Below are positions 1,968 through 12,333 of a DNA stretch of 64,000 nt, piece after piece (position 1 is the stretch's first letter; every line of letters begins with the position of its first letter). The stretch comes from Halococcus salsus. GTDB lineage: Archaea > Halobacteriota > Halobacteria > Halobacteriales > Halococcaceae. The position numbers and the translations under genes were made by a program. The DNA lies in contig NZ_JAAAJC010000001.1 in NCBI RefSeq assembly GCF_009900715.1, positions 1,291,216 through 1,355,215 on the forward strand, written 5' to 3'. The notes beneath the pieces are model-generated. The model saw only the letters and a list, made by a program, of their open reading frames with translations, did no database searches and was not told where the DNA came from.

Positions 1968-3500
1968 ATGATGGTTGATGATGGTGTCCGCGGGCGGGAC
2001 CCCGCCGTTCGCGTCGCCGGGGCGGGGAACGACTCGCGGAGCGACGAACTCCTCGCCGCCGGGCGCGACCCCGAGACGACCGTCGCAGTAGCGGCGGTCG
2101 GGTCGACCGGGATCGCCGGTCTCGAACCGCTCGTGTTGGCGACGCTCGATGGCGAGACTGCCTTCTTCTCCGGAATGGATACCGACGGCGTTCGAGCGCT
2201 CGTCGAGTCGCTCGACGAGGGAACGCTGCCGACCGACGACGCGATGGCGGTCGTCGAACACGACCCCGAAACGGCGTCACTCCCGCTCCCCGACGACGGA
2301 CCGCTCGCGGTCGGACGACGGGCCGCGCTCTCCGGGGTCGGATGGACGAACCCGACGAGCACCGACGACTACCGCGCCGGAGAGTTCCTCGCGTCCGAGA
2401 CGACCGACGACGCGATGGAGCGGCTCCGCGAGACGGGGCTTCGCGGGCGTGGCCGCGGCGATGTCGCCACTGATACGCCGGTGGTCGAGGAGTGGGCGAC
2501 CGTCGCCGAAACCGACGGCGACGCGGTGGTGGTCGTGAACGCCAACGAGGCCGACCCCGATGCCGAGGCCGATCGTCTGTTACTCGAAAGCGCGCCCTTC
2601 TCGGTGCTCGACCCGGCGTTCGCCGCCGCCCGCGCGGTGGACGCCACCGACCTCGTGGTCTACGTCAACGAACGCGAGCACCTGGCCCGCGAGCGGGCGA
2701 AGACGGCGGCGGAAGCCCTCGACGGGACCGTCGACGGGCTCTCGACCCGGATCGTCGCCGGCCCGGACGAGTACAAGGCCGGCGAACCCACGGTGGTCCT
2801 CGAAGCCATCGAGGGCAACCACCGGCTCGAAGCCCGGCGCACCCCGCCCGGCCCCAGCGAGTACGGTGTCGACGGCCGCCCCACGCTGGTCCACACGCCG
2901 CGGACGTTCGCCCAGGTCGGGCGCGCCCTCGCCGGCGAGGACCTCGGCGGCGTGGCTTCCGACCCCGGAACCCGACTGGTCACCGTCACGGGCGACGTCG
3001 CGTCCCCGGCGACGGTCGAGCTCTCGACGGACGACGGCCTCGATTCGGCGCTGTCGGCGGTCGAGGCGGGTGGCCGAAGTATGGCCTGCGTCGGCGGCGT
3101 CTTCGGCGGGTTGACGCGCACGCTCGACGTGCCCGCGAACGCGTCCGGGCTGACCGGCGCACAGCTCGGCACCAACGGCGTTGTCGAACTCCTCGACGAG
3201 TCGACCTGTCCGGTGGCGTTCGCGGGCGAGCGCGCGACGTTCGCGAAGGAGGAGAACTGCGGGCGGTGCGTCCCCGGTCGCGAGGGCTCGAAACAGCTGG
3301 TGAACCTCCTCCGGGACGTCTACGACGGCGAGTACAAGGAGGGGATGCTCCGCGAGCTCGCGCGGGTGATGCGCGAGACCAGCACCTGTGAGCTCGGGCG
3401 CGACGCACCCCGCCCCGTGACGACCGCGATGGACGGCTTCGGTGCGGAGTTCGCCGCCCACGCCCAGGGCCGCTGTCCGACCGGGGCCTGTGACCGATGA
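1968..3500 (+). CDS. NuoF/51-kDa-like subunit of a formate-dehydrogenase-like complex, with degenerate cofactor motifs
   Basis: The 510-aa product is related to the 51-kDa (NuoF/FdsB/HoxF) subunit that carries FMN, the NAD site and one 4Fe-4S cluster. The C-terminal half is recognisable by ENCGRCVPGREGS and STCELG. Three features are odd. The FMN loop GRGGAGFPTG is reduced to GLRGRGRGD (157-165). The NAD-site loop reads NANEADPDAEADR (191-203) instead of NGDEGEPGT-like sequence. The cluster motif CxxCxxC is C431-C434-G437, with Gly (GGT) where Cys (TGT) is expected; a further Cys is at 474. Two ATGs (1968, 1971) follow the TATA element. It lies 43 bp before the Fe-S subunit gene. Electron acceptance from something other than NAD is an inference. 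Confidence 0.7.
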   Translation: MMVDDGVRGRDPAVRVAGAGNDSRSDELLAAGRDPETTVAVAAVGSTGIAGLEPLVLATLDGETAFFSGMDTDGVRALVESLDEGTLPTDDAMAVVEHDPETASLPLPDDGPLAVGRRAALSGVGWTNPTSTDDYRAGEFLASETTDDAMERLRETGLRGRGRGDVATDTPVVEEWATVAETDGDAVVVVNANEADPDAEADRLLLESAPFSVLDPAFAAARAVDATDLVVYVNEREHLARERAKTAAEALDGTVDGLSTRIVAGPDEYKAGEPTVVLEAIEGNHRLEARRTPPGPSEYGVDGRPTLVHTPRTFAQVGRALAGEDLGGVASDPGTRLVTVTGDVASPATVELSTDDGLDSALSAVEAGGRSMACVGGVFGGLTRTLDVPANASGLTGAQLGTNGVVELLDESTCPVAFAGERATFAKEENCGRCVPGREGSKQLVNLLRDVYDGEYKEGMLRELARVMRETSTCELGRDAPRPVTTAMDGFGAEFAAHAQGRCPTGACDR

Positions 3501-3543
3501 CGACCGACGACCCGTTCGACACGACCGACGACGAGGACCTATC

Positions 3544-4473
3544 ATGAGTACGGACCCGATCTGGGAGAACTCCCACACGACCGGCCCCGACGTACCGTTC
3601 ACCGAGGACATCGCCCCGGGAACCGCCAACGACCCCGCGGCGGGCGCGACCGAGGCGGCGACGGTGACCGTCGACGGCGAACCAGTCGACGTCGAGGAGG
3701 GAGAGACTCTGCTCGACGCCTGCGAACGCGTCGAGACCGAGGGCGAGGTGCTCGCGCTCTGTTCGTACGACCTCGAAGAGGAGATCGGCCCGCGGAGCGA
3801 GTGCCGGACCTGTATGGTCGAGACCGAGGAGCACGGCGTCGTGCCCTCGTGTAGCTTCCCGCCGGAGGAGGGGATGAGCGTCACCACCGACACCGCCGCG
3901 GCGAGCGAGGCGCGCGACGTCAACCTCGACCTCCTGCTCTCGAACCACAACCTGCTCTGTACGACCTGCGGCCAGAACGGCCGGTGCGACCTCCAGGACG
4001 TCTCGATCCAGAACGAGGTCGAGGAGCCCAGATACGGCGTGATGCACGACCGGAGCCAACTCGAACCGCTCGACGATTCGTCCCCCTTCATCCAGATCGA
4101 CCGCAACAAGTGTATCCTCTGTAACCGCTGTGTCGAGGCCTGTAACGACGTCCAGGTCGAGGGCGTCCTCCGGATGGAGGGCTCGGGCGAGGACACCAGG
4201 ATAGGATTCCAGAACGGTGCGGAGACGATGATGGAGTCGACCTGTGTCTCCTGCGGGCACTGCGCGACGGTCTGCCCGACGGGCGCGCTGGTCGAACAGG
4301 GGCTCGTGGACTCCACGACGCTCCCGGTCCCCGGCTTCACGCACAAGAACTCCGCCGAGGAGATAGTCGGCGAGGAGTACGAGCACCAGCCGGGCCAGAT
4401 GACCCCGATGAAGCGCCAAGAGGAGACCGAGAACGAGCCGGCGGCTACCTTCGAATCCGTGGGGGACGACTGA
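3544..4473 (+). CDS. Fe-S subunit of formate-dehydrogenase-like complex (NuoG N-terminal/HoxU-like)
   Basis: The 309-aa protein carries a full electron wire. A plant-ferredoxin-type 2Fe-2S domain has Cys 73, 87, 90 and 103. A His-Cys3 4Fe-4S site lies at H135, C139, C142 and C148 (NLLCTTCGQNGRC). Two ferredoxin-type 4Fe-4S clusters follow at C190/193/196/200 and C234/237/240/244. This is the N-terminal module of NuoG and of NAD-linked formate dehydrogenase alpha subunits, here encoded separately. The acidic C-terminus is a haloarchaeal trait. ATG 3544 precedes the ferredoxin domain; in-frame codons further upstream would run into the preceding gene. Its stop is one base before the catalytic subunit's ATG, so the two are co-translated and presumably bind each other in the cytoplasm. 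Confidence 0.85.
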   Translation: MSTDPIWENSHTTGPDVPFTEDIAPGTANDPAAGATEAATVTVDGEPVDVEEGETLLDACERVETEGEVLALCSYDLEEEIGPRSECRTCMVETEEHGVVPSCSFPPEEGMSVTTDTAAASEARDVNLDLLLSNHNLLCTTCGQNGRCDLQDVSIQNEVEEPRYGVMHDRSQLEPLDDSSPFIQIDRNKCILCNRCVEACNDVQVEGVLRMEGSGEDTRIGFQNGAETMMESTCVSCGHCATVCPTGALVEQGLVDSTTLPVPGFTHKNSAEEIVGEEYEHQPGQMTPMKRQEETENEPAATFESVGDD

Positions 4474-4474
4474 G

Positions 4475-6829
4475 ATGAGCCAGGACACACCCGACACCGA
4501 GAACGAGGGCGTCGCGGGCTTCATGGCCCGCGCGAAGGCACAGGCGGGCGAACAGGCCAAGGAGACCGCGAACGACAAGGTCGTGCGACCGTTCGAGCAC
4601 GCGGTCTCGGGCTTCATGGGGAACGCGGTCTCCGAGGGGCGGCTGTTCTCGATCGCAGACGCGGTCGCCGACTACCAGGAGAACGACATCGACGTCACCG
4701 ACACGACCTGTGAGTACTGCGCGGTCGGCTGCCGGTTCGACGTCCTCACGAAGGACGGCGAGTTCCTCGGGACCAGACCCCGCCCGGAGAAAGCGCCGAT
4801 CAACGGGATCTCGACCTGTGTCAAGGGGAAATTCGCCCACGGCTACACCCACAGCGACGACCGGCTGACCCAGCCGCTCGTGAAGGAAGACGGCGAGTTC
4901 CGGGAGGCCTCGTGGGACGAAGCGCTGACGCGGGTTGCCGAGGGACTCGGCGGCATCAAGGAGGAGTACGGCCCCGACGCGCTGGGGTTCGTGGCCTCCT
5001 CGAAGGCCACCAACGAGGACAACTACGCGATGCAGCGGTTCGCACGCGAGGTCATCGGCACCAACAACATCGACAACTGCAACCGGCTCTGTCACTCCTC
5101 GACCGTCTCCGGCCTCTCCTCGACGTTCGGCTTCGGCGCGGCCTCCGTCGGGATGGAGGCGCTCGAAGAGACCGACTGCTACCTTCTCACTGGGTCGAAC
5201 ACCACCGAGGCCCACCCGGTGCTCGCGACGCGGATCAAGCAAAACGTCATGCACAACGACGCGGACCTCTTGGTGTTCGACCCGCGGAAGACCCAGATCG
5301 CGGAGTACGCCGACCAGTATTCCCAGATCAAGGCGGGCTACGACAACACCTGGCTCAACGGGCTCGTCAGGTACATCCTGAAGAACGACCTCGAAGACCG
5401 AGAGTTCATCGAGGAGCGGACCTCGGGGATCGAACAGGTCGAGGAGAGCGTCGAGAAGTTCACGCCGGAGTTCGTCGAGGAGCACGCCGGCGTCCCGCCC
5501 GAGGAGATCGCGAGCGCGGCCGAGACCATCACGGAGGCCGACTCCTGTGTGTTCGGCTGGACGCTCGGGATGACCGAGCACGCCAAGGGCACCGAGAACA
5601 TCTACGCCATCGCGAACCTCGCGCTGGTGACGGGCCACATCGGGAACCCGAAATCCGGTGTCTCGCCGTTCCGCGGTCAGAACAACGTTCAAGGTGGTGG
5701 CGGTGACATGGGGCCGCTCCCCAACAACTTCCCGGGCTACCAGCCGGTGACGAACGAGGAGAACCGGGAGAAGTTCGCCGAGGCCTACGGGATGAGTGTG
5801 GATGAAATGCCCGACAAGGAGGGCTACCGCCTCACGGATATGTTCCTCGCGGCCGCCGACGGCGACATCCGGGGGATGTTCATCCAGGGCGAGAACTCGC
5901 TGGTCTCGGAGCCGAACATCGCCCACGCCCGCGAGGTCCTCACCGAGGACATCGACTTCCTCGCGGTCCAGGACATCTTCCTGACCGAGACCGCCGAGCT
6001 CGCCGACGTGGTCCTGCCGGCGACCGCCTCGCTCGAGTCCAACGGCACGTACACCGCCTCGACACGTCACGTCCAGTTGGTGAAACGGGCGGTCGACCCC
6101 ATCGGCAACGCCAAACCCGACTGGCGGATCACGAAGGCGCTCGCGGCGAAGTTCGGCTACGAGTGGGAGTACGAGCACCCGAGCGACATCATGGACGAGA
6201 TCAGTGAGGTGGTTCCGATCTACGGGGGGATCAGCCACGAGCGGCTCGAAGCCCTCGAAGACGGCGACGGACTCCAGTGGCCGGTCTGGGACATGGACCA
6301 TCCCGGCACCCCCTACACCTACGAGGAGGAGTTCCAGACCAACGACGGCCTGGCGCACATGCATCCCGCCGATACCGTCGATCCGTCGGAGACGCCCGAC
6401 GACGACTACCCGCTGGTGATGACCTCGGGACGGGTCCTCTATCAGTACCACACCGGGACGATGACGTTCCGCGACGAGGGGATCATGTCCTACTCCGACA
6501 AGAGCTTCGTCGAGGTTCACCCCGAGACCGCCGAGGAGTACGGGATCGCGGACGAGGAGGTCGTCGAACTCACCTCCCGGCACGGCAAGACGGAGATGCT
6601 GGTGCAGATCACGACCCGTCCGAACCCCGGCGAGGTGTTCGTCCCGATGCACTACCTCGAAGGCGGCGCGAACAACCTCACGAAGGAGGACCCGCTCGAC
6701 GGTGCGGCACGCACACCCGAGTACAAGATCACCGACGTCCAGATCACGGTGACCGGGAAGGAGGTCGACGACCTCCAGGGGAGCGTGCCGCGTGGCGAGG
6801 CGGGACGACCCGCGAGCTCGGACGACTGA
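4475..6829 (+). CDS. Molybdopterin-dependent formate dehydrogenase-like catalytic subunit
   Basis: The 784-aa enzyme belongs to the DMSO-reductase superfamily, formate-dehydrogenase branch. After a polar 70-residue extension comes the 4Fe-4S site C79-x2-C82-x3-C86...C115. The motif NNIDNCNRLCHSS places the metal-ligating Cys206 next to His207, the pair that corresponds to Sec/Cys-His in formate dehydrogenases. Molybdopterin-binding blocks (FRGQNNVQGGGGDMG, TSGRVLYQYHTGTMTFR) follow, and the C-terminal aspartate-decarboxylase-like domain is intact. No Tat signal is visible, so the enzyme should be cytoplasmic, converting formate to CO2. It is the third gene of the operon, and moaA and mobA nearby could supply the cofactor. 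The physiological direction and partner are unknown. Confidence 0.85.
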   Translation: MSQDTPDTENEGVAGFMARAKAQAGEQAKETANDKVVRPFEHAVSGFMGNAVSEGRLFSIADAVADYQENDIDVTDTTCEYCAVGCRFDVLTKDGEFLGTRPRPEKAPINGISTCVKGKFAHGYTHSDDRLTQPLVKEDGEFREASWDEALTRVAEGLGGIKEEYGPDALGFVASSKATNEDNYAMQRFAREVIGTNNIDNCNRLCHSSTVSGLSSTFGFGAASVGMEALEETDCYLLTGSNTTEAHPVLATRIKQNVMHNDADLLVFDPRKTQIAEYADQYSQIKAGYDNTWLNGLVRYILKNDLEDREFIEERTSGIEQVEESVEKFTPEFVEEHAGVPPEEIASAAETITEADSCVFGWTLGMTEHAKGTENIYAIANLALVTGHIGNPKSGVSPFRGQNNVQGGGGDMGPLPNNFPGYQPVTNEENREKFAEAYGMSVDEMPDKEGYRLTDMFLAAADGDIRGMFIQGENSLVSEPNIAHAREVLTEDIDFLAVQDIFLTETAELADVVLPATASLESNGTYTASTRHVQLVKRAVDPIGNAKPDWRITKALAAKFGYEWEYEHPSDIMDEISEVVPIYGGISHERLEALEDGDGLQWPVWDMDHPGTPYTYEEEFQTNDGLAHMHPADTVDPSETPDDDYPLVMTSGRVLYQYHTGTMTFRDEGIMSYSDKSFVEVHPETAEEYGIADEEVVELTSRHGKTEMLVQITTRPNPGEVFVPMHYLEGGANNLTKEDPLDGAARTPEYKITDVQITVTGKEVDDLQGSVPRGEAGRPASSDD

Positions 6830-6880: not shown

Positions 6881-7210
6881 ATGGGAACGGTCACCGAGGA
6901 CGACATCGGCAAGCCAATCCTCACGGCGAAAGGGCGGAACATCGGCACGCTCGGCGGGGTCGACGGCCCCACGATGTACATCGACGTCGACGACGACATC
7001 GACCCCGGACTTCTGAGCGACATGAAGATCGCCGAGATCACGGGTATCAAGGTCGAGGGCGAGACCCTCGCTGGCGCGCCGCTGGCGTCGGTCGCCGACG
7101 TCACCGACGAGGAGATCCGGTTCTGGCCGTCCTACGCCGCCGAGTCCGAACACGAGTCGGTCTCCTACGAGGACATCCCCGAGGAAGAGAGCCACACCGA
7201 GGACTTCTGA
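6881..7210 (+). CDS. PRC-barrel domain protein
   Basis: The 109-aa acidic protein has a single PRC-barrel-like domain: ILTAKGRNIGTLGGVDGPTM is the typical strand-turn-strand start, and the C-terminus is an acidic tail. PRC-barrel proteins bind RNA or partner proteins; the best-known members are RimM and the photosynthetic H subunit. Stand-alone haloarchaeal copies have no assigned role. It begins 51 bp after the formate-dehydrogenase-like subunit and could belong to that transcript or be independent. Confidence 0.75.
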   Translation: MGTVTEDDIGKPILTAKGRNIGTLGGVDGPTMYIDVDDDIDPGLLSDMKIAEITGIKVEGETLAGAPLASVADVTDEEIRFWPSYAAESEHESVSYEDIPEEESHTEDF

Positions 7211-7268: not shown

Positions 7269-7547
7269 ATGAGTTGGACCGTGAAAGCGAAGCGGCTGGT
7301 CGGCCTCGACCCGACGCCGACCGGCATCGGCAGCCACCAGCGAACCGTCCACGAGTGTACGGTCTGTGGGACCGAGTTCGACGTCGAGGGAACGACCTGT
7401 CCGAACTGCGAGAGTCACCTCCTGCGCGAGAAAACGACGACCCCCCGAGCGGGATTCAACCTCGCGTTCGCGGTCGTCACGGCCGGCCTCGCGGTGGCGT
7501 ACAACGTCCTGACGGGCAACTACCCGAAGGAAGGGCCGGGAGCCTAG
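7269..7547 (+). CDS. Zinc-ribbon protein with one C-terminal membrane segment
   Basis: The 92-residue protein has a zinc ribbon made of ECTVCGTEFD and TTCPNCES (two CxxC pairs 16 residues apart), followed by one hydrophobic stretch, FNLAFAVVTAGLAVAYNVL, near the C-terminus. It is therefore probably membrane-anchored with the ribbon in the cytoplasm. Many such proteins exist in haloarchaea without known function. The family is not named here with confidence. Confidence 0.65.
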   Translation: MSWTVKAKRLVGLDPTPTGIGSHQRTVHECTVCGTEFDVEGTTCPNCESHLLREKTTTPRAGFNLAFAVVTAGLAVAYNVLTGNYPKEGPGA

Positions 7548-7625: not shown

Positions 7626-8549
7626 ATGTCGCTTTTGCTCGGCACGCGGGACGGCGTCTTCCGGTCGGGCGAGTCGCTCGACGACGCGGAGCGCGTGGTC
7701 GATGCGGGGAACACGCTTCGGGTGCGGACGTTCGAGGCGAGCGCGTACGCCGCGACCACGAGCGGGCTCTACCGCTCGACCGACGGTGGGGCGGAGTGGG
7801 AGCGGCTCGACGTCCCGCGCGAGGAGGTCTACTCGGCCGTCACGAGCCCCGACGGCGAGCGCCTCTACGCGGGGACGCATCCCGCCCACCTCTACGTCTC
7901 GATGGATAGTGGCGAAACCTGGAACGAGTACGAGGGCTTCCAGGAGCTTCCGTCGCGCGACGAGTGGCACACCCCGCGCCACCGAAACGAGGCCCACGTC
8001 CGGAGTCTCGGAACCCATCCCGACGCGCCCGAGAGAGTGATCGCGGGTGTCGAGGTCGGCGGGGTCCACGTCAGCGACGACCGCGGCGAGACGTGGACCG
8101 AACGGCGCGAGGGGGTCCACGACGACGTCCACCACGTCCTCGTGCTCGGCGACGAGGAGTACGTCGCCTCGACCGGCGGTGGGCTCTACCGGACCCGCGA
8201 CACCGGGCGGTCGTGGACCAGAATCGACGAAGCCGTCGACCACAGCTACTTCCGGGAAGCGTTCGCGTTCGAGGGGACCCTCTACGTCGCCGCGGCGCGC
8301 GACCCGCCACCGACGTGGGGCGGGGAGAGCGGGGCCGACGCAGCGCTGTTCGAATCGCGGGACGGCGGCGACACGCTCGATTCGGTGTCGTATCCCGGCG
8401 ATCCCGAGGAGTTCGTGCTCGCGTGGACGGCGTGGGACGGTCGGGTGGTCGCCGGAACCACCGAAGGCCGGGTGCTGGCTCGCGAGCCCGACGGCTGGAC
8501 GACGGTCGGACACGTCCCGTCCGGGGTCCGCTCGCTCGCGGTCGTCTGA
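7626..8549 (+). CDS. BNR/WD-like beta-propeller repeat protein
   Basis: The 307-residue product contains repeated Asp-box (BNR) motifs of the S-x-D-x-G-x-x-W type: STDGGAEWERL, SMDSGETWNEY, SDDRGETWTER, TRDTGRSWTRI and a weaker ESRDGGDTL. These mark the turns of a beta-propeller as in sialidases and photosystem assembly factor Ycf48. No sialidase catalytic residues can be assigned. No signal peptide is seen, so it is probably cytoplasmic. ATG 7626 starts directly with MSLLLGTRDGVF, the first blade; an in-frame TTG 27 nt earlier is less likely. The function is unknown. Confidence 0.75.
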   Translation: MSLLLGTRDGVFRSGESLDDAERVVDAGNTLRVRTFEASAYAATTSGLYRSTDGGAEWERLDVPREEVYSAVTSPDGERLYAGTHPAHLYVSMDSGETWNEYEGFQELPSRDEWHTPRHRNEAHVRSLGTHPDAPERVIAGVEVGGVHVSDDRGETWTERREGVHDDVHHVLVLGDEEYVASTGGGLYRTRDTGRSWTRIDEAVDHSYFREAFAFEGTLYVAAARDPPPTWGGESGADAALFESRDGGDTLDSVSYPGDPEEFVLAWTAWDGRVVAGTTEGRVLAREPDGWTTVGHVPSGVRSLAVV

Positions 8550-10341: not shown

Positions 10342-12333
10342 TCAGTCGTTCAGCGGCCGGTCGGCGGCGGTCGTGGCGGGGCGGAGTTCGACGTGCGTCT
10401 GCCCCTCCCCGACCAGCGGGTCGGCGGCGCGGGCGTGGAGGTAGACACACCCCTCGCGGACGCTCTCGGTACGTCGAACGGTCGTCTCGATGGCACCGTT
10501 CGCGTTCTCGACGACCGCCCGGTCGCCGTCCGCGAGCCCGTTCTCGTCCGCGTCCGCGGGATGGATCGCGAGCGTATCGTCGTGGCCGTCGCCGTCGCGT
10601 CCCATCGTGGTGTTGGTGGTGTCGCCGCTCCGGCCGCCGGTGAGGAGGACGAGTCCGTCGTCGCTCGCCTCGTCCGCGGTCGCGGCGGTCGGGACGAACG
10701 GCGCGCGCTGCTCGCCGGTCAGGAAGCGCTCGCGGTGGAGCACTGCCGTCCCCTCGTCCGCGCCCTCGGCGAACGGCCAGCGCTGGCCCCCGGTCCCGAC
10801 CCCTTCGTAGCTCATGCCGGCGTAGCGCGGGTTCACGGTGGTCATCTCCTCGAACACGCGTTCGGGGTCGTCGTCGAATGCGACGTCGGTGAGGCGCTTG
10901 CCGAGCGCGCAGAGGACGGCGAGGTCGTCTCGCGCCTCGCCCGGCGGGGATTCGAGGGTCCGCATACGCTGGACCTGTCGGTCGAGGTTGGTGACGGTGC
11001 CCGACTTCTCCGACCACGCGCTCGCCGGCAGCACCACGTCGGCGTGGGCGGTGGTCTCGGTGTGGGTCACGTCCTGAACCAACAGAAAATCGAGCGATTC
11101 GAGGCCGCGCGCGACGCGTTCGGTCCCGAGCTTCGTCACCGCCGGGTTCTCGCCGAGCACGAACGCCCCGCGGATCCCGTCGCCGAAGCCGCGCACGAGG
11201 TCCTGTTCGTTCAATCCGGGTTCGGTCGGGGGCTCGACGCCCCACGCTTCCGCGACCCGTTCCCGGACGTCGGGGTCGGTGACGGGCTGGCCGCCCGGCA
11301 GTCGGTGGGGGAGCGCGCCGACGTCGGAGGCACCCTGCTCGTTGTTGAGCCCGCGGAAGACGTTCATCCCGGTCCCGCGCTCGCCGAGGTTCCCCGTGAG
11401 CAGGAGGAGGTTCAACAGCGCCTCGGCGGTGTCGGGGCCGTCCTCGATACCGGTGCCGGTGACGACCGTCGCGCGGTCGGCGCGTCCGAACCCACGGGCG
11501 ACGTCCCGAACCGTCCCGAGGTCGACGCCGGCCCGGTCGGCGGTCGCCGCCGGGTCCTCGTCCGCGACCGACGCCGCGAACGCCTCGAATCCAGTCGTAC
11601 GGTCGGCGACGAACCCCTCGTCGACCAGCCCCTCGTCGAGGATCGTCCTCGCGAGCAGCGAGATCACCTGTGCGTCGGTTCCGGGGCGCGGCGCGAGGTG
11701 GTGGTCGGCGAGCCGTGTGGTGGCGTTCGCACGTGGGTCGACGTGGACGAGGGTCGCGCCGTCGTTGACCGCCGGCCGGACGAACGAGTCGAACGCCACC
11801 GGCTGCTGGTCGGCGGGGTTCGAACCCACGACCAGAAACACGTCGGCCTCCCTGATGTCCGCGAGCGAGTTGGTCATTCCGCCCGCGCCGAGGCGGGCCT
11901 CCATCGCCGAGACGCTCGCGTCGTGGCACAGCCGTGCCCGGTTGTCGACGTTGTTGGTTCCGAGGACGCGTGCGAGCTTCTGGAAGGTGTAGTTCTCCTC
12001 GTTGGTGCAGTGTGGTGCCCCGAGGAAGGCGAGCGCGTCGGGATCGTGGTCGTCGACGATCCGCTCGAAGGCCGTTTCGATCCGGTCGAGGGCGTCCGGC
12101 CACGTCGCAGGTTCGAGGTCGCCATCGCGCCGGACCAGGGGTTCGGTCAGCCGGTCGTCGGGGTCGAACACGTCGAACGCGCCGATGCCCTTCGGACAGA
12201 GTTCGCCCCGCCGGTTGACCGGCGCGCCGCTGACGCCGCGCGCGCGTCCGGCGTTCGCGTCGTATCGGAGTGAACAGCCGACCGAACACCGTGGACAGAC
12301 GCTCTGAACGCCGTCCGCTGGTTCCTGACTCAT
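10342..12333 (-). CDS. Second molybdopterin oxidoreductase, formate dehydrogenase/assimilatory nitrate reductase type
   Basis: The 663-aa enzyme is a second DMSO-reductase-family member without a long N-terminal extension. A 4Fe-4S site lies at C13-x2-C16-x3-C20...C46 and NNVDNRARLCHDAS gives the Mo ligand Cys136 with His137, the formate-dehydrogenase arrangement. The block FRGLNNEQGASDVGALP corresponds to the molybdopterin-binding region of the first enzyme, so the two are paralogues. The order NVDNRARLCH also fits the NasA-like clade, so formate or nitrate chemistry stays open. It lies between pstB and mobA on the same strand and has no dedicated Fe-S or flavin subunit next to it. Confidence 0.8.
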   Translation of the reverse strand: MSQEPADGVQSVCPRCSVGCSLRYDANAGRARGVSGAPVNRRGELCPKGIGAFDVFDPDDRLTEPLVRRDGDLEPATWPDALDRIETAFERIVDDHDPDALAFLGAPHCTNEENYTFQKLARVLGTNNVDNRARLCHDASVSAMEARLGAGGMTNSLADIREADVFLVVGSNPADQQPVAFDSFVRPAVNDGATLVHVDPRANATTRLADHHLAPRPGTDAQVISLLARTILDEGLVDEGFVADRTTGFEAFAASVADEDPAATADRAGVDLGTVRDVARGFGRADRATVVTGTGIEDGPDTAEALLNLLLLTGNLGERGTGMNVFRGLNNEQGASDVGALPHRLPGGQPVTDPDVRERVAEAWGVEPPTEPGLNEQDLVRGFGDGIRGAFVLGENPAVTKLGTERVARGLESLDFLLVQDVTHTETTAHADVVLPASAWSEKSGTVTNLDRQVQRMRTLESPPGEARDDLAVLCALGKRLTDVAFDDDPERVFEEMTTVNPRYAGMSYEGVGTGGQRWPFAEGADEGTAVLHRERFLTGEQRAPFVPTAATADEASDDGLVLLTGGRSGDTTNTTMGRDGDGHDDTLAIHPADADENGLADGDRAVVENANGAIETTVRRTESVREGCVYLHARAADPLVGEGQTHVELRPATTAADRPLND

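Follow-up and report, generated by a model that had tools for sequence, protein, structure and literature searches.

A haloarchaeal formate dehydrogenase operon with a remodelled NuoF/HydB-type subunit and without NuoE

Organization of the Formate Dehydrogenase Operon

A 64,000-nucleotide stretch of the Halococcus salsus genome (contig NZ_JAAAJC010000001.1), referred to here as the window, carries at positions 1968–6829 three genes on the same strand that encode a NuoF-like, a NuoG-N-like and an FdhA protein and constitute a molybdenum- or tungsten-dependent (Mo/W) formate dehydrogenase (FDH) operon. The original prediction placed these genes correctly, and Pfam and TIGR01591 agree with its assignments. 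The first gene (ATG at 1968, stop at 3500, + strand) encodes a NuoF/HydB-type pseudo-subunit of 509–510 amino acids that matches Complex1_51K and NADH_4Fe-4S in Pfam. It comprises a cluster-free thioredoxin-like N-terminal domain, a flavin mononucleotide (FMN)-fold domain without the signature for FMN and nicotinamide adenine dinucleotide (NAD), an N3 domain with a Cys436 to Gly replacement, and a site formed by C413, H497, C502 and C507; coordinates of its residues were derived from residue numbers, with residue 1 at 1971. The gene is followed by those of the NuoG-N-like electron-transfer subunit (3544–4473, + strand, 309 amino acids; Fer2_4, NADH-G_4Fe-4S_3 and Fer4 in Pfam) and the catalytic subunit FdhA (4475–6829, + strand, 784 amino acids; Molybdopterin, Molydop_binding and Fe4S4 in Pfam). 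A 16-codon open reading frame, MTTDDPFDTTDDEDLS, lies at 3497–3547, and its TGA overlaps the ATG of the NuoG-N gene. The genome contains this single NuoF-like gene and also a NuoD homologue.

The electron-transfer and catalytic subunits are intact. As had been proposed, the electron wire of the second subunit is complete, with one 2Fe-2S cluster (C73/C87/C90/C103) and three 4Fe-4S clusters (H135/C139/C142/C148, C190/193/196/200 and C234/237/240/244), all ligands of which are invariant in 70 of 70 homologues. FdhA scores 781.5 bits against the Fdh-alpha model TIGR01591, above the curated cut-off of 666.25, and its catalytic residues C206, H207 and R400 as well as the [4Fe-4S] ligands C79/C82/C86/C115 are conserved in all 68 homologues.

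Remodelling of the FMN and NAD Sites

Both loops of the NuoF-like protein that were said to have lost canonical residues read as quoted. The FMN loop GLRGRGRGD (residues 156–164; 2436–2462, + strand) contains R162 and D164 in place of two canonical glycines, and comparison with homologues identifies NANEADPDAEADR (residues 190–202; 2538–2576, + strand) as an altered NAD loop. In addition, HTPR occupies residues 308–311 (2892–2903, + strand) where canonical proteins have NNVE. This HT.R replacement escaped the original prediction, as did the broken N3 ligand set, the missing cysteine pair of the thioredoxin-like domain and the zinc-type site described below.

A motif comparison of 73 altered with 11 canonical proteins reveals that these changes are shared throughout the haloarchaeal family. 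In the numbering of A. mobile HydB, G169 (position 162 of the window protein) has become Arg or Trp in 71 of 73 homologues and G171 (D164) has become Asp in 72, while N321 is replaced by His (H308) in 71, N322 by Thr (T309) in 70 and E324 by Arg (R311) in all 73. The FMN ligands reported for A. mobile HydB are K177, N194 and E197 (PMC8880783); Lys is found at the first position in none of the 73 altered proteins, whereas N194 is retained in 70 and E197 in 47. Furthermore, E287 is kept in only three of them and the AFM motif is gone. Homologues thus do not keep the canonical loops: the FMN loop is altered in every one of the 73, in the nearly invariant new states GRGRGD or GRGWGD, and the NAD loop is altered or deleted. 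Because the replacements are near-fixed across 73 proteins, the pocket appears to have been rebuilt with fixed new residues rather than to have decayed at random. The earlier description of the subunit as degenerate is therefore only half right, since canonical residues have been lost, but the altered positions are conserved in their new state. The gene is under constraint, with about 0.046 nonsynonymous substitutions per nonsynonymous site (dN) and about 0.24 synonymous substitutions per synonymous site (dS) in comparison with the nearest relative.

The binding motifs of NAD-dependent FDH and of NuoEFG-type diaphorases (GRGGxGF, DExxPG, NN.E and Lys177) are missing from the window protein, which scores 128.7 bits against the NuoF model TIGR01959, the cut-off of which is 558.65 bits. 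Judging from the residues lining the pocket, FMN binding by this protein is unlikely, even though GRG, N190 and E193 are still present.

Absence of NuoE and Distribution of the Altered Family

Two samples of genomes were surveyed, comprising 196 Halobacteriales and 394 genomes of the phylum. Relatives of the NuoF-like protein occur in 78 of the 196 Halobacteriales genomes and in 29 of 66 genera. Six of these 78 genomes hold a distant, canonical NuoF group, and the remaining approximately 72 (about 37% of 196) hold the altered family, whose members form one group with full support in trees. This clade sits on a long branch, which makes any assignment of its exact sister group tentative. Across the phylum, scores above 600 bits are confined to Halobacteriales and none outside the order exceeds 268 bits; the loops were essentially canonical at all 16 loci read outside Halobacteriales. 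No description of the altered subunit was found in the open-access literature, which is weak evidence of absence.

The original prediction had stated that the operon lacks NuoE, and this holds for the whole genome, in which PF01257 has no match, be it full- or half-length. Full-length NuoE (E < 1e-45) is present in exactly the six genomes with canonical NuoF (G003, G075, G109, G120, G143 and G195) and in none of the approximately 72 genomes of the order with altered NuoF. Half-length PF01257 matches in 84 genomes of the order were considered as a hidden NuoE and rejected, the example read, at locus L195, resembling a chelatase of the CbiX type that carries a [2Fe-2S] domain at its C-terminus. 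The only canonical haloarchaeal locus read (L126, in G075) is associated with a NiFe hydrogenase and not with FDH; read by eye, positions 8291–15314 of L126 hold genes for NuoE, a HydB that ends in a ferredoxin domain, a HydA resembling NuoG and the small and large hydrogenase subunits (HydS and HydL), in this order, and also for a maturation protease. Outside the order, locus L178 combines FDH with NuoE and a HydB with canonical-type loops, so that an FDH partner alone does not force the loss.

Orphan paralogues of altered NuoF, without FDH genes in the fetched stretch, were seen in L121 (3006–4496, RGFVDS) and L122 (8882–10360, RGQADD). Two apparent gene fusions did not hold: the single-chain NuoF-NuoG-FdhA fusion in L120 was rejected because of a frameshift within a proline-rich segment of its NuoF portion, and the NuoF N-terminus in frame with the second FdhA in L125 looks like a deletion.

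The N3 Cluster, the Zinc/B2-Type Site and the Fold

The N3 [4Fe-4S] motif of the window protein reads CGRCVPGREG (residues 430–439; 3258–3287, + strand), with the third ligand cysteine replaced by Gly436 (codon GGT). The ligand set is thus C430, C433, G436 and C473, which departs from the canonical CxxCxxC...C pattern. Among the 73 proteins the ligand states are CCCC in 53, CCGC in five including that of the window, and SCGC in 15. A tree built without the N3-ligand columns indicates that intact N3 was lost at least four times (in the window protein and L051; in L057; in L084 and L096; and in the 15-member clade). Every loss includes the exchange of Cys436 for Gly, and it is ligands one and three that disappear, never two and four.

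The cluster-binding cysteine pair of the thioredoxin-like domain occurs in none of the 73 proteins, while C413, H497, C502 and C507 are invariant in all of them. The latter residues align with C438, H525, C531 and C536 of A. mobile HydB, the ligands of its B2 site (PMC8880783), which has been assigned as zinc (PMC9499530). These ligands are absent from the NuoF and FdsB reference sequences in the alignment. The protein ends after the zinc-type site and lacks the C-terminal 2x[4Fe-4S] domain. Its AlphaFold model (predicted local distance difference test, pLDDT, 94.1; predicted template modelling score, pTM, 0.93) matches the fold of 9n5u_B and 9bov_B with template modelling (TM) scores of 0.88 and 0.86, compared to about 0.80 for FdsB, and the best sequence matches are likewise the bifurcating NfnB/HydB subunits.

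Subtypes of the Locus and Partner Genes

Gene calls at neighbouring loci relied on the length and acidity of the reading frames and include some shadow open reading frames, and identities outside annotated records stem from similarity or reading by eye. Three subtypes can be distinguished. Subtype A, to which the window belongs, consists of NuoF, NuoG-N and FdhA, often a small conserved protein, a zinc-ribbon protein and often a second FdhA. Subtype B, the majority, combines NuoF with a fused NuoG-N/FdhA and has neither DUF1641 nor the zinc-ribbon protein. Subtype C has a NuoF in which the FMN loop reads GRGWGD and the NAD loop is deleted, together with NuoG-N, FdhA, DUF1641 and usually a second FdhA. 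In the stretches read, DUF1641 directly follows FdhA at all 14 subtype C loci and is found at no other altered locus.

In the window, FdhA is followed by the small protein (6881–7210, + strand, 109 amino acids), which appears PRC-barrel-like by eye, has no Pfam match and recurs after FdhA in subtype A, and by the zinc-ribbon protein (7269–7547, + strand, 92 amino acids) with four cysteines and one hydrophobic C-terminal helix. The zinc-ribbon protein is conserved beside subtype A FDH, including three loci without NuoF (L191, L192 and L193). These three contain NuoG-N, FdhA, the zinc-ribbon protein and a second FdhA of the A type, with altered NuoF located elsewhere in the genome; NuoF may therefore function in trans, or it may not be needed. 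The second, shorter FdhA-like protein of the window (10342–12333, − strand, 663 amino acids) reaches 520 bits with TIGR01591, which is below the cut-off, and its gene adjoins MobA and MoaA; a similar second FdhA is also found after the FDH genes in subtypes A and C. Other neighbours are a glutathione-independent formaldehyde dehydrogenase in Halocatena salina and a methylenetetrahydrofolate dehydrogenase in Haloarcula hispanica, both of which fit a role in one-carbon oxidation.

The Electron Acceptor of the Complex

The intact FdhA/NuoG-N chain next to a rebuilt, NuoE-less and partly N3-less NuoF argues against NAD as the electron acceptor, a reading to which we assign a probability of roughly 85%. 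The enzyme would be cytoplasmic, a Mo/W formate dehydrogenase with a dismantled NAD-reducing module. Formate would be oxidized at the FdhA cofactor (Cys206/His207/Arg400), and its electrons would enter the NuoG-N chain by way of the [4Fe-4S] cluster of FdhA, while the HydB/NuoF-type subunit, which keeps its fold and zinc/B2-type site but would no longer carry NAD-reactive FMN, may serve a structural or docking role. The outer NuoG-N clusters could then hand the electrons over to the membrane pool of menaquinone, with a ForE-like DUF1641 subunit as the putative quinone site in subtype C and the conserved membrane zinc-ribbon protein as the candidate tether of the complex in subtype A. It is from the sequences that we infer the absence of FMN, the exit point, the quinone acceptor and the tether.

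A partner other than NAD, as originally suggested, is thus supported by the loss of NuoE, the lack of the Lys177 equivalent in all 73 proteins and the repeated loss of N3. Ferredoxin and quinone are both candidates, and DUF1641 favours menaquinone in one subclade. In Bacillus subtilis, an FdsA-like FDH that has no flavin subunit is linked to menaquinone by ForE (DUF1641; PMC8808070). By analogy with this tested precedent, menaquinone is likely to be the acceptor in subtype C and is a reasonable guess for subtype A, and overall we put it at slightly under even odds. Several observations weigh against this reading. DUF1641 is absent from the genome and from all 18 sampled genomes of its taxonomic family, which rules it out as a universal partner and leaves these genomes without that candidate quinone site. 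N3 is intact in 53 of 73 proteins, which would be unexpected if electrons passed through NuoF in no lineage at all, and C433 (3267–3269) and C473 (3387–3389) are invariant even where N3 is broken; in the 15 proteins lacking the other two ligands they possibly form a disulfide or bind another cluster. Moreover, N190 and E193, corresponding to two FMN contacts of HydB, are retained in the window protein.

Ferredoxin is nearly as likely an acceptor as menaquinone, above all in subtype B, and overall we put it at rather less than even odds. Electrons would move from NuoG-N, or from N3 where present, to the soluble haloarchaeal 2Fe-2S ferredoxin and possibly on to Nuo without NuoEFG. Haloarchaeal oxidative decarboxylation uses ferredoxin with a potential near that of NAD/NADH, and Nuo lacking NuoEFG is its proposed oxidant (PMC8305020); transfer from formate would be downhill without bifurcation because of this potential. 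The NuoD homologue in the genome, the aldehyde:ferredoxin oxidoreductase-like genes (by eye) adjoining several loci and the lack of both DUF1641 and the zinc-ribbon protein at most loci, where NuoG-N and FdhA are fused, are consistent with such a route. However, the subunit is missing the C-terminal 2x[4Fe-4S] domain through which bifurcating HydB has been proposed to bind ferredoxin, and the DUF1641 partner of one subclade points to quinone.

That the complex still reduces NAD, with FMN held in a remodelled pocket by R162, D164, H308, T309 and R311, is improbable. The fold is intact (pLDDT 94; TM 0.88 to NfnB), the replacements are fixed as in a working site, E272 is kept along with GRG, N190 and E193, and most members preserve N3, the electron donor to FMN. 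Nevertheless, the HydB Lys177, G169, G171 and AFM motif are all replaced or lost, one subclade has deleted the NAD loop, NuoE is gone and N3 ligands have disappeared in at least four lineages including that of the window. Slightly less probable still is docking of the complex on haloarchaeal Nuo at the position left vacant by NuoEFG, where it would act as an input module driven by formate. NuoG itself consists of NuoG-N plus an FdhA-like protein, and the genome has NuoD. Haloarchaeal Nuo lacks NuoEFG (PMC8305020), and an NDH-1 lacking NuoEFG has been put forward as the coupling partner of a HoxEFU diaphorase (PMC9414918). On the other hand, the operon has no link to nuo genes, and DUF1641 and the zinc-ribbon protein offer alternative routes. 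We give equally long odds to the HydB scaffold having been reused as a flavin-free docking subunit of an exchangeable Nuo input module, its R162/D164/H308/T309/R311 pocket recognizing a new partner or ligand. Sequencing errors or gene decay, to which the frameshift in L120 and the deletion in L125 might be ascribed, are refuted for the family and hardly conceivable for the window, as the same changes recur in 73 sequences from many genera with open frames and low dN/dS, and a relative at 92% identity shares the Cys to Gly exchange.

Implications

The annotations of Haloarcula hispanica and Halocatena list an "NADH-ubiquinone oxidoreductase-F iron-sulfur binding region domain-containing" protein beside "formate dehydrogenase subunit alpha". 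This NuoF-type label invites NAD-linked models, and public databases probably mislabel FDH with the altered subunit as NAD-linked. If the flavin site is indeed gone, formate electrons enter another pool in about 37% of the sampled Halobacteriales genomes (72 of 196). The family displays graded losses in one protein, from the thioredoxin cluster and NuoE to the FMN/NAD residues, the NAD loop and N3. It makes testable which parts of a NuoF-type subunit stay needed once NAD handling ends, and it provides a handle on the input to the haloarchaeal Nuo complex.

Comparison With Known Systems

The closest likeness of the NuoF-like subunit is to HydB/NfnB of the bifurcating HydABC, HydABCSL and NfnABC complexes (7t2r, 7p8n, 9n5u, 9bov), which provide its best sequence and fold matches and share the zinc/B2 ligands. 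Unlike these, it lacks the thioredoxin cysteine pair, the FMN/NAD signature, the C-terminal 2x[4Fe-4S] domain, a NuoE/HydC partner and one N3 ligand. The haloarchaeal HydABCSL-like hydrogenase of L126, from the same order, has a homologous NuoF-type subunit, but its FMN/NAD loops are canonical, NuoE and a C-terminal ferredoxin domain are present, and a NiFe hydrogenase takes the place of FdhA. The canonical NuoE-HydB pair is shared by all six genomes mentioned above, hydrogenase genes having been read in L126 only.

The NAD-dependent FdsABG of Rhodobacter and Cupriavidus (6tg9, 6vw7) resembles the operon in combining a NuoF-like subunit with a NuoG-N/FdhA architecture and its cluster chain (TM about 0.80), and a thioredoxin-like domain without cluster cysteines is also found in a Microvirga FdsB. 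The window, in contrast, lacks FdsG (NuoE), has altered FMN/NAD loops, encodes NuoG-N as a separate gene and possesses the zinc/B2-type site. ForCE of Bacillus subtilis (PMC8808070) likewise has a NuoG-N plus FdhA chain without a working flavin/NAD subunit, the latter being a prediction on the haloarchaeal side, and shares DUF1641 with one haloarchaeal subclade. The haloarchaeal enzymes differ from it in having Cys-His (68 of 68) rather than Cys-Gln at the active site and in keeping a pseudo-NuoF, and the window differs further in having no DUF1641.

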